Positions 30,674 to 33,699 of a stretch of DNA of 64,000 bases are shown here, one piece after another (within the stretch, counting starts at the first letter, position 1; each line of letters opens with the position of its first letter). The translations under genes and the position numbers were made by a program. The DNA lies in assembly GCF_008124865.1 (NCBI RefSeq), contig NZ_VNHY01000002.1, positions 310,001 through 374,000 of the forward strand, read 5' to 3'. This DNA is from Fodinibius salinus. GTDB taxonomy: Bacteria; Bacteroidota; Rhodothermia; Balneolales; Balneolaceae. The notes under the pieces were generated by a model. The model was given only the letters and a program-made list of their open reading frames with translations. It had not been told where the DNA came from and did no database searches.

Positions 30674-30717
30674 CGTCATGAACAAAACCTGACAGGTCTA
30701 ACAAAAAGGTGACCATT

Positions 30718-31077
30718 ATGAATGAAATCAAAGCATTTATTCGCAAACGAAAAGCAGAAGAGGTCATTGACGGACTAGAAGCCGAAGGGTTCTGCTGTAT
30801 GACCATCATTGATGTCATGGGACTGGGTCGCATGTCGGATCCCGAAAAAGCACAACTGTCTATCAGCATAGCCGAACGATTCTCTGATATTGTAAAATTG
30901 GTTGTGGTCTGCACTCAAAATGACACAGAAGAAGTGTTAGAGATCATCCAAAACCATGCTCGCAGTGGCCAACCCGGCGATGGCATCATCTATGTGACAC
31001 CGGTATCCAAAACGATTCATATACGAAGCGGTAAAACCGGAGGTAGTTTCTTGCAAAGTGAAAGAACGTCCAATTGA
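30718..31077 (+). CDS. PII-like protein linked to CusCBA (PII-NG type)
   Basis: 119 residues with PII features: MNEIKAFIRKRKAEEVIDGL, GFCCMTIIDVMGLGR, and the C-terminal GQPGDGIIYVTPVSKTIHIR nucleotide site. It shares the GxCCMT block with the protein at 3540 but has no His in the loop. PII-NG proteins are a described subgroup encoded beside CusABC pumps, which is this context. ATG 30718 follows AAAAGGTG by 8 bases. It may gate the pump or signal energy state; unproven. Confidence 0.86.
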   Translation: MNEIKAFIRKRKAEEVIDGLEAEGFCCMTIIDVMGLGRMSDPEKAQLSISIAERFSDIVKLVVVCTQNDTEEVLEIIQNHARSGQPGDGIIYVTPVSKTIHIRSGKTGGSFLQSERTSN

Positions 31078-31734: not shown

Positions 31735-32310
31735 ATGGAAAACAGCAACGTTTTGTACATAAAGAACATGGTGTGCCCCCGCTGCAAGCTCGCAGTTAAA
31801 AATCTATTAACTGATATGGGCTGCAACGTTCTTGCTGTTGAATTGGGGCAGGCAGTAGTCAGCTCAAGGTCTCTCCCTGCTATATCGGAAGTTGCTAATA
31901 AATTGAGAACGATTGGGTTTGACCTTTTATCTACCCGGAAAACCAAGTTAGTTGAAAGGATAAAAATTTTGCTGATCTATGACATTTATTACCAATCATG
32001 CCAGGTAACGTTATCACAGGTGCAAAACTATCTTGAATTAGCTACCCACCAGAACTATCAGTACCTGGACACTCAATTTTATTCCGTCTATCAAATATCT
32101 ATTAAAGACTACTGGGATAAACTAAGATTTGAGCGAGCGAAAGAATTGCTTTCGTATAATGAAAAAGCTCCTGATGAAATAGCTCGGGAGTTGGGCTACG
32201 CCACGGAGGATGATTTGGAATTAACATTTAAACAAAACCTTCATTTATCAATATCAGAATATATCCAATCAGAGAATAATTATAGATCGCCACTCAATAA
32301 GCTACCGTAA
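31735..32310 (+). CDS. Metal-sensing regulator: HMA-like domain fused to AraC-type helix-turn-helix
   Basis: 191 residues. The first 65 resemble a heavy-metal-associated (HMA) fold with C14-P-R-C17 (KNMVCPRCKLAVKNLL). The C-terminal 100 residues are an AraC-type DNA-binding domain (YWDKLRFERAKELLS, IARELGYATEDDLELTFKQN). It looks like a one-component regulator in which metal binding at CxxC controls DNA binding. ATG 31735 is used because the HMA strand begins there. It has a direct-repeat promoter of its own, so it may be an output or a modulator of that regulon. Confidence 0.82.
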   Translation: MENSNVLYIKNMVCPRCKLAVKNLLTDMGCNVLAVELGQAVVSSRSLPAISEVANKLRTIGFDLLSTRKTKLVERIKILLIYDIYYQSCQVTLSQVQNYLELATHQNYQYLDTQFYSVYQISIKDYWDKLRFERAKELLSYNEKAPDEIARELGYATEDDLELTFKQNLHLSISEYIQSENNYRSPLNKLP

Positions 32311-32321
32311 AATATTTTTAT

Positions 32322-32353
32322 TTGACTCTCGACCATGGTACAGGGCTTATATT
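32322..32353 (+). promoter_or_regulatory. MerR-type promoter (20-bp spacer with dyad)
   Basis: TTGACT (32322-32327) and TATATT (32348-32353) are 20 bp apart, the overlong spacer that MerR-family proteins untwist. Between them is a dyad centred on ACCATGGT with flanking CTC and GGG, like merT, cadA and pbrA operators. It drives the 48-residue Cys-rich gene, with the MerR gene just downstream. Confidence 0.8.
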
Positions 32354-32393
32354 ACAGATGAATTGTATTCTTTAATGTATAGGAGGAATTGTT

Positions 32394-32540
32394 ATGCCAC
32401 TCAAAAAAGGAGAAGTTTACCAATGTCCAGACGATAGTTGTGGTTGTGAAGTCACCGTAACCAAAGGTGCCCCCAGCGACTGCTCGGGGACGCAAAACCC
32501 GACTTGTTGCTGCGGCAAAACCATGGTAAAGAAACAATGA
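32394..32540 (+). CDS. 48-residue Cys-rich protein, candidate metallothionein-like metal binder
   Basis: A strong ribosome site (AGGAGGAAT) precedes ATG 32394. The 48 residues contain seven Cys (11, 16, 18, 30, 38, 39, 40), with CPDDSCGC near the start and TCCCGKTM near the end, plus a Lys-rich tail. It has no signal peptide or membrane helix, so it is cytoplasmic. The MerR-type promoter means it should be induced by a thiophilic metal. No named family is recognised; a small zinc-ribbon-like or metallothionein-like chelator is inferred. Confidence 0.8.
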   Translation: MPLKKGEVYQCPDDSCGCEVTVTKGAPSDCSGTQNPTCCCGKTMVKKQ

Positions 32541-32546
32541 GATTAA

Positions 32547-32576
32547 TAAGCATCCGGGGAATGCCTCGGATGCTTA
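32547..32576 (+). terminator. Hairpin after the Cys-rich gene
   Basis: TAAGCATCCG (32547-32556) pairs perfectly with CGGATGCTTA (32567-32576) around ten bases. Not followed by a T run, so it may stabilise the small mRNA or attenuate read-through into the regulator gene. Confidence 0.55.
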
Positions 32577-32612
32577 CCTAATTCCAACATTTGTGTTCAG
32601 CAGGTGATGTGT

Positions 32613-33074
32613 ATGATTGAAAACATGGATGAAAAATATAACGGAATCACCACCTACAAAATTGGTGACGTAGCTAAACGGGCTGATGTTAATAAAGAAA
32701 CCGTGCGATACTATGAGAAACGAGACCTGATCCCTAAGCCTGATCGGCGCCGCTCGGGTTATCGCATTTTTACCCAGCGCCATATTGATCAGATCCGGTT
32801 TATAAAACGAGCCCAACAGCTGGGCTTTACCCTCAGTGAAATTAAAGAGCTGTTGGAGCTGCGGATGAATGCGAATACTACCTGCCCGGAGATCAAGAGC
32901 GAAGCCCAGGAAAAATACCGGGATGTAAGGGAGAAGATCGAAGATCTCAGACGCATCCAAAAAACATTGACTGATCTTATTGATTCGTGTTCTGAAGAAG
33001 GACCTGTCGGAGATTGCCCTATTCTCGAAGCTTTAGAAGGAAAGAACGAAACTGGAAAGCAACTTAGAAAATGA
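32613..33074 (+). CDS. MerR-family metal-responsive regulator with three-Cys site
   Basis: 153 residues: winged helix (KIGDVAKRADVNKETVRYYE), long dimer helix and metal loop. Cys 91, 126 and 135 have spacings of 35 and 9, identical to C82, C117 and C126 of Tn21 MerR, and the surroundings match (DVREKIEDL, GDCPILEAL). Hg(II) or Pb(II) sensing is therefore likely. ATG 32613 has AGGTG six bases ahead; other in-frame starts are at 32604, 32607 and 32625. There are no merT, merP or merA genes nearby. It overlaps the next gene by four bases. Confidence 0.9.
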   Translation: MIENMDEKYNGITTYKIGDVAKRADVNKETVRYYEKRDLIPKPDRRRSGYRIFTQRHIDQIRFIKRAQQLGFTLSEIKELLELRMNANTTCPEIKSEAQEKYRDVREKIEDLRRIQKTLTDLIDSCSEEGPVGDCPILEALEGKNETGKQLRK

Positions 33075-33283
33075 ATGAACAAGTAAAACTTCAATCCACA
33101 ATTACGTGTCCTGAATGCGGGAATCAGGCGGAAGAAGATATGCCAACAGATTCCTGCCAATATTTTTGGGAATGCCCAAATTGCAACAAAATTCTAAAAC
33201 CTCAGAAAGGTGATTGTTGTGTATTTTGCTCCTATGGTGATATCCCATGTCCTCCGGTTCAAAAAGAAAAATCCTGCTGCTAA
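33071..33283 (+). CDS. GDCCVxC domain Cys-rich protein
   Basis: 70 residues with CPEC and CPNC pairs (a zinc ribbon, residues 13-38) followed by GDCCVFCSYGDIPCPP and a terminal CC. The GDCCVxC motif defines a small protein family in which some members carry selenocysteine; here both positions are ordinary Cys. It is co-translated with the MerR-type regulator (ATGA overlap), implying a part in Hg/Pb-type response. The function is unknown. Confidence 0.85.
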   Translation: MNEQVKLQSTITCPECGNQAEEDMPTDSCQYFWECPNCNKILKPQKGDCCVFCSYGDIPCPPVQKEKSCC

Positions 33284-33431
33284 TTTATTGATCTAATGCA
33301 ATAATACGCAAAGGATTTTGAATCTATGTATGATCAAAATTAAGACTAATTTATAGGTTTTAATTCTTCGTAATTTTTCCGAATTTCGTCTGCGCTACTC
33401 TCAAGTAGCGTCTCTCTTGATGAATAGTTAG

Positions 33432-33466
33432 GGCCCTAGCTTTGAACGGCTAGGGCCTGTTTTATT
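33432..33466 (+). terminator. Rho-independent terminator
   Basis: GGCCCTAGC (33432-33440) pairs perfectly with GCTAGGGCC (33449-33457) around eight bases, then TGTTTTATT. Probably ends the MerR/GDCCVxC transcript. Confidence 0.8.
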
Positions 33467-33643: not shown

Positions 33644-33690
33644 TTTGGCTTCGGATCAGAAGGTTAGGGGTTCGAATCCTCTCGGGCGTA
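33644..33690 (+). other. 3' fragment of a tRNA-Arg(UCG)-like gene, likely attachment-site remnant
   Basis: The sequence reads as anticodon stem (TTTGG/TCAGA, with wobbles), seven-base loop CTTCGGA with anticodon TCG, variable loop, a T arm (AGGGG TTCGAAT CCTCT) and 3' acceptor strand CGGGCGT plus A. No D arm or 5' acceptor strand is present upstream, so this is not a full tRNA. A 3' tRNA piece of this extent is what integrases leave at island borders. A terminator follows within 10 bases. Confidence 0.75.
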
Positions 33691-33699
33691 CTTTCAAAC

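Follow-up and report, generated by a model that had tools for sequence, protein, structure and literature searches.

A MerR-controlled operon for a small, cysteine-rich, probably metal-sequestering protein in Balneolaceae

The 64,000-nucleotide stretch of DNA analysed here (the window), from a salt-loving bacterium, contains a short operon in which a MerR-type promoter is followed by the gene for a 48-residue, seven-cysteine protein (MT48), an RNA hairpin, merR, and a gene for a GDCCVxC protein. Judged by its sequence, this appears to be a MerR-controlled metallothionein-type unit that is related to mer operons and falls below the formal mer, MymT, and desulforedoxin cut-offs. We consider it reasonably probable that the operon is an autoactivated, soft-metal-inducible sequestration unit, with mercury the most likely inducer; that is, a mer-type operon cut to its chelator arm.

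Operon layout, promoter, and hairpin

The promoter (32322..32353, forward strand, as are all features below) has the -35 element TTGACT and the -10 element TATATT, separated by a 20-bp spacer with an imperfect dyad; MerR promoters are characterized by a 19–20 bp spacing over a dyad. The operator TTGACT-N20-TATATT is found once in the 64-kb window, against none expected from shuffles, and the count in the whole 2.86-Mb genome is still one when up to three mismatches are allowed. The MT48 reading frame (32394..32540; 48 aa, 7 Cys) is preceded by an AGGAGG ribosome-binding site. Directly behind its stop codon lies the hairpin (32547..32576; 13-bp stem, 4-nt loop), followed by merR (32613..33074, 153 aa), whose most likely start is the ATG at 32613, where several relatives also start, and by the GDCCVxC gene (33071..33283, 70 aa), which overlaps the merR stop in an ATGA at 33071–33074. 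An intrinsic-terminator-like hairpin at 33431..33458 is the probable end of the operon, a call that is weak on its own because 1.7 such sites are expected by chance in the stretch.

Most of this anatomy had been proposed in the first-pass annotation. The promoter is present exactly as it was described there, the gene behind it does encode a 48-residue protein with seven cysteines, and no reductase or transporter gene follows within the window unit. The claimed co-translation of the regulator with the GDCCVxC protein is supported by the ATGA overlap, which is kept in relatives. Since a single operator is found genome-wide, the claim that the tiny cysteine-rich proteins are the only targets also holds for this operator type.

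A MerR-type promoter with a 19–20-bp spacer is located 54–85 bp 5′ of MT48 at 37 of 44 loci, the window included; this survey was judged by position, spacing, and a per-locus shuffle p, an overall score of 19 being reached by no site. The geometry is common to Balneolaceae and Actinomycetota, although the operators themselves differ in sequence, as in CTCGACCATGGTACAGGGCT of the window vs TTGCCCCTGGGGCCAGGTTC of a Streptomyces. Moreover, four actinobacterial loci with no adjoining MerR (L033, L035, L036, and L039) still have the promoter. Neither an adjoining MerR nor a convincing promoter was found at three Nitrospirae and Chloroflexota loci (L026, L032, and L042) or at L007. The persistence of the promoter geometry where operators differ or merR is missing is, in our opinion, the strongest sequence evidence that MT48 is a MerR cargo.

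The hairpin between MT48 and merR is unusually stable (z -4.24; none of 200 shuffles reached its stability). Where a MerR gene follows MT48 in Balneolaceae, 17 of 20 distinct loci fold as well as or better than 98% of shuffles; the stems differ in sequence, and several are followed by a T run. The hairpin is possibly a leaky terminator or a 3′-end stabiliser that raises MT48 over MerR, and such an excess would be what a stoichiometric chelator needs. If MerR activates the transcript from which it is itself translated, the circuit should be self-amplifying.

The MerR regulator

The regulator (Pfam MerR_1, 1.6e-20) contains exactly three cysteines, C91, C126, and C135. Their spacing of 35 and 9, which the initial annotation had likened to that of mercury MerR, is borne out: the residues align with the cysteines of the Tn501 and Bacillus MerR structures and form the three-cysteine pattern of the mercury site. 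The best solved structures are those of Bacillus (116.6 bits) and Tn501 (96.9 bits) MerR, ahead of CadR (88 bits) and of CueR and the MerR-family regulator 5gpe (~80 bits). Among NCBIfam models, the mercury MerR model TIGR02051 is the best, its 142.5 bits being 8 bits short of the curated cut-off of 150.85. The spacing recurs in all 26 full-length Balneolaceae MerRs found beside MT48 (the tree set); the MerR tree does not separate one origin of the reduced layout from several.

These data bear on the main alternative, namely that this metallothionein switch responds to a different soft metal (Cu/Ag, or Cd/Pb/Zn) and that the mercury link is incidental. The lead sensor PbrR also has the 35/9 spacing, which is therefore not unique to mercury MerR, and the shortfall against the mercury cut-off counts against the mercury reading. 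On the other hand, the mercury MerR is the best match both by family and by structure, and the window protein has a cysteine at the start of the dimer helix, the site at which Cu(I) sensors carry serine. On balance we consider another metal rather unlikely for the window unit.

The situation differs outside Balneolaceae. There, the MerRs partnering MT48 mostly lack the three-cysteine mercury site, which makes it unlikely that the MT48 family in general is specific for mercury. Actinobacterial partner MerRs mostly keep two of the three metal cysteines, which suggests that metal choice has probably shifted in Actinomycetota and lends the other-metal alternative some weight.

MT48 and its relatives

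No Pfam or NCBIfam model matches MT48 above its cut-off. In size and cysteine content the protein belongs with metallothioneins, and it looks like a member of an unnamed, probably metal-sequestering family. A scan of bacterial and archaeal genome contigs gave 43 loci with homologues: those of Balneolaceae are 75–96% identical to the window protein and those of Actinomycetota 57–78%, and further homologues occur in metagenome-assembled genomes labelled Nitrospirae, Acidobacteria, Chloroflexota, and Deltaproteobacteria. Every aligned member has C11, C16, C18, and C38; C39 and C40 are almost always kept, and a subgroup has another residue in place of C30. Among 394 genomes drawn from the window's phylum, 15 carry MT48, all of them from Balneolaceae; in the family itself the count is 22 of 92 genomes. 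A draw of 396 actinobacterial genomes gave a match in three, from which no family-wide frequency is claimed. Plasmids of Streptomyces and Mycolicibacterium also carry MT48, either annotated as hypothetical or with no gene listed for it. At L019 (Aliifodinibius salipaludis), L071, and L182, the MT48 start and first cysteine have been lost (C11 to F), and merR and the GDCCVxC gene behind it are intact.

The nearest named relative is the mycobacterial copper metallothionein MymT. Its model, NF052418, scores 20.1 bits on MT48 (E 4e-4; cut-off 80) and is weakly matched by 22 of 26 family members, and hhalign of MT48 with mycobacterial MymT gave E 4.8e-5 and a probability of 68% with most cysteines aligned. 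A distant relationship between the two is thus supported at the sequence level. M. simulans and M. parascrofulaceum carry a true MymT and MT48 as separate genes. It should be noted that MymT is a Cu(I) metallothionein, which again favours a metal other than mercury.

The AlphaFold model of MT48 (pLDDT 92) matches desulforedoxin (1dxg) over the whole predicted domain. In a VIA-align run, a second look at the top chains from a Foldseek search of the model, this match had a Z of 4.9 and 1.6 Å over 36/36 residues with 39% identity, the next row having 3.1. The match is graded moderate because no PDB entry was significant in the plain Foldseek search. By sequence, the desulforedoxin ligands correspond to C11, C16, C39, and C40 of MT48, the extra cysteines being C18, C30, and C38. 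The Desulfoferrod_N model (PF06397) scores 10.5 bits on MT48 (E 0.49; cut-off 23), and 22 of 26 family members match it weakly, the best with E 0.0037.

Could MT48 then be a genuine desulforedoxin, with a redox or iron function that serves a reductase or an oxidative-stress response, and no chelator? The top structural match with all four ligand cysteines in place, the weak Desulfoferrod_N matches across the family, and the flavin reductase gene downstream in fuller operons all favour this idea. However, MT48 has three extra cysteines, two of them invariant, and a first knuckle two residues longer; it resembles MymT and sits behind a MerR promoter, and the window unit has neither a reductase nor a superoxide reductase. 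We therefore regard the redox explanation as improbable and continue to treat MT48 as a likely chelator. Open-access literature yielded no paper with both desulforedoxin and metallothionein; this is weak evidence of novelty because the search covered open-access papers only.

The GDCCVxC protein

The third product of the operon is a zinc-ribbon-like protein and a clear member of the GDCCVxC domain (seleno)protein family, with 103.6 bits and 4.8e-30 against NF041374 (cut-off 40); it was aligned with 13 relatives. Its predicted structure was set aside as too poor a model (pLDDT 57). Over 92 Balneolaceae genomes, the family is present in 21 of 22 genomes with MT48 vs 27 of 70 without (p 1e-6, kinship uncorrected). 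A search of the open-access literature gave no paper mentioning GDCCVxC, which is likewise weak evidence of novelty.

A second GDCCVxC copy is located at contig positions 306897–307064, approximately 2.9 kb before the window, behind a paralogous RND efflux–P-II–HMA/AraC cluster. It has an in-frame TAA and a degenerate motif (L046, L055), and looks like a pseudogene within a decayed sister of the window cluster.

Genomic neighbourhood and the link to mercury

The first-pass annotation had proposed looking for homologues of the 48-residue protein next to MerR genes, with consistently unrelated contexts as the outcome that would count against it. A MerR gene in fact adjoins MT48 or lies in the same gene run at 35 of 43 loci from several phyla; many of these loci are close relatives and hence not all independent, and it is the support across phyla that counts. 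MerR is encoded 3′ of MT48 and in the same direction in Balneolaceae (27 of 29 loci), and divergently in most Actinomycetota.

The Balneolaceae loci provide the link to mercury. At 9 of 29, MT48 and MerR are followed in the same operon by MerTP, eight of these also having GDCCVxC, and most of the nine encode ArsR and a flavin reductase as well. Nine further loci, from several species, have MT48-MerR-GDCCVxC alone, as in the window; at two, MerT-like and MerP-like genes separate MT48 from MerR; and seven have MT48-MerR with none of these neighbours. The identity of MerTP is clear (264.7 bits in a relative's operon vs the NF033556 cut-off of 180), and over the 92 Balneolaceae genomes it exceeds the cut-off in 13 of 22 with MT48 vs 7 of 70 without (Fisher p 8e-6, kinship uncorrected). 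The occurrence of MerTP in the same operon in nine relatives speaks against an incidental mercury link. The window unit is one of several layouts sharing a front end with larger mer-type operons and not a stand-alone invention.

The window unit itself contains no mercury transporter or MerA gene. In the whole genome, no MerTP exceeds the cut-off, in a search that evidently works because it was clearly positive in 20 relatives; MerT gave no match, there or in any control genome. No convincing MerA was found in the window genome, the two best MerA-like matches being under the cut-off. The first of these was rejected as a lipoamide dehydrogenase, with lipB/lipA-like genes coming next, and the second as an SthA-like flavoprotein by sequence and context. 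The reductase in the relatives' operons was also rejected as MerA, since it is under the MerA cut-off and nearer to glutathione reductase; mercury reduction is therefore no more than a possibility even for the fuller operons.

The unit belongs to a Cu/Ag efflux island of the Cus type and is flanked on both sides by Cus-type RND efflux systems, a setting that favours the other-metal alternative, as does a Streptomyces copy of MT48 that adjoins an arsenic cluster. Several features of the surroundings deserve mention in their own right. The protein encoded at 31735–32310 begins with an HMA-like CxxC motif (MVCPRC), joined to a DNA-binding domain of the AraC type, and may regulate the Cus genes as a metal-sensing AraC protein; L004 has a relative in the corresponding position, and the paralogous cluster contains another. 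A P-II-like protein is encoded at 30709–31077, directly behind an RND efflux pump gene. The paralogous cluster repeats this pairing, and in L006 and L181 MT48 is immediately preceded by a P-II-like gene. Positions 33650–33691 resemble the 3′ half of a tRNA; the window has no complete tRNA gene and the genome no second copy with up to three mismatches, and the sequence may be the attachment-site scar of an inserted island. Elsewhere, MT48 clusters of Acidobacteria and Balneolaceae (L044, L013, L016, and L172) include a MerP-like HMA protein and a protein of ~290 aa with no Pfam or NCBIfam match, and at L026 and L032 (Nitrospirae) the HMA protein again adjoins MT48, with a CsoR-like gene upstream.

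Selection

Constraint in the operon is strongest on MT48. When the window is compared with relatives, MT48 has a dN/dS of about 0.01–0.07 and the lowest dN of the three proteins; MerR and the GDCCVxC protein have low dN/dS where dS could be estimated, synonymous change being near saturation. Because of this low dN/dS and the conservation of the other two proteins, it is very improbable that the window unit is a functionless leftover of a decaying mer-type operon. MerTP, ArsR, and the reductase are indeed missing from the unit, the upstream GDCCVxC copy appears to be a pseudogene, and MT48 is damaged at L019 and L071. Nevertheless, the promoter, ribosome-binding site, hairpin, and ATGA overlap are all intact in the window, and the same reduced layout recurs at nine loci of several species.

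Proposed mechanism and significance

We propose that MerR occupies the 20-bp-spacer promoter and underwinds it once its three-cysteine site is bridged by a divalent, thiophilic metal ion, Hg(II) being the most likely. RNA polymerase would then transcribe MT48, merR, and the GDCCVxC gene, and the hairpin would end or stabilise many transcripts behind MT48, leaving MT48 in excess over its regulator. The seven cysteines of MT48, four corresponding to desulforedoxin ligands plus three, could bind one or several soft metal ions as a thiolate cluster, in the way that the related MymT binds Cu(I). The GDCCVxC protein is probably metal-binding too, and may take ions from MT48 or give ions to it. Relatives with MerTP and a flavin reductase would use the same front end for a fuller mer-type operon, the window unit consisting of sensor and chelators alone.

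The anatomy, promoter geometry, single operator, family, gene context, and selection can be read from the sequence; the choice of mercury, metal binding, detoxification, and the parts played by the hairpin and the GDCCVxC protein are what we infer beyond it. Of the original interpretation, MerR control and a tiny cysteine-rich first target stand, in view of the promoter, the operator, and the MerR neighbours. Its suggestion of chelation-based mercury or lead detoxification survives in part: chelation is the likely mode and MerTP at nine related loci supports a mercury link. A broader proposal, which we put forward tentatively and with less than even confidence, is that MT48 and MymT form one metallothionein superfamily on the desulforedoxin fold, MT48 being the MerR-switched, mercury-sequestering arm of mer-type operons, which in some genomes, this one among them, would act alone, with neither reductase nor transporter, and confer mercury tolerance independently of MerA.

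These findings point to a family of small proteins that has escaped annotation, is probably metal-sequestering, and is tied to MerR switches in several phyla; they also suggest a fold-level origin, in desulforedoxin, for MymT-type metallothioneins. The unit is also a candidate for mercury handling without MerA. A mer-gene survey (PMC8261052) raises such a gap for genomes with MerB and without MerA, for which it discusses thiol-based mercury handling. As a sensor-plus-chelator cassette, it could be ready-made for soft-metal biosensing.

Comparison with known systems

The consulted parts of PMC8261052 and of a study of P. aeruginosa CadR (PMC12301328) do not describe the MT48 family. In the latter, CadR activates the small zinc-ribbon gene zrd, and the authors note metallothionein similarities. 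The two systems are alike in that a MerR-family metal sensor switches on a small cysteine-rich gene. However, zrd has two CXXC-N10-CXXC ribbon motifs and a Cd/Zn response, and it lies between opdD and PA1026, not in the operon of its regulator (PMC12301328).

With the mer operons of Tn21/Tn501 and Bacillus (TIGR02051, NF033556), the unit shares a three-cysteine MerR, a long-spacer promoter, and, in its relatives, MerTP. It differs in having no MerA, MerT, or MerP, in its metallothionein-like first cargo, and in a merR that lies downstream in the same direction, whereas that of Tn21/Tn501 is divergent. Desulforedoxin and the desulfoferrodoxin N-domain share with MT48 the predicted fold, the four ligand cysteines, a GxVYxC start, and a CCGxxM end, but MT48 adds its further cysteines and a two-residue insertion in the first knuckle and is under the Pfam cut-off. 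MymT has a similar length of ~48 aa and the Cx4CxC ... CxC-G layout in common with MT48; unlike MymT, MT48 is far below the model cut-off (20 bits vs 80) and is under MerR control. In its likely mode of action, the unit comes closest to a mercury-type MerR switch with a MymT-like chelator as its output.
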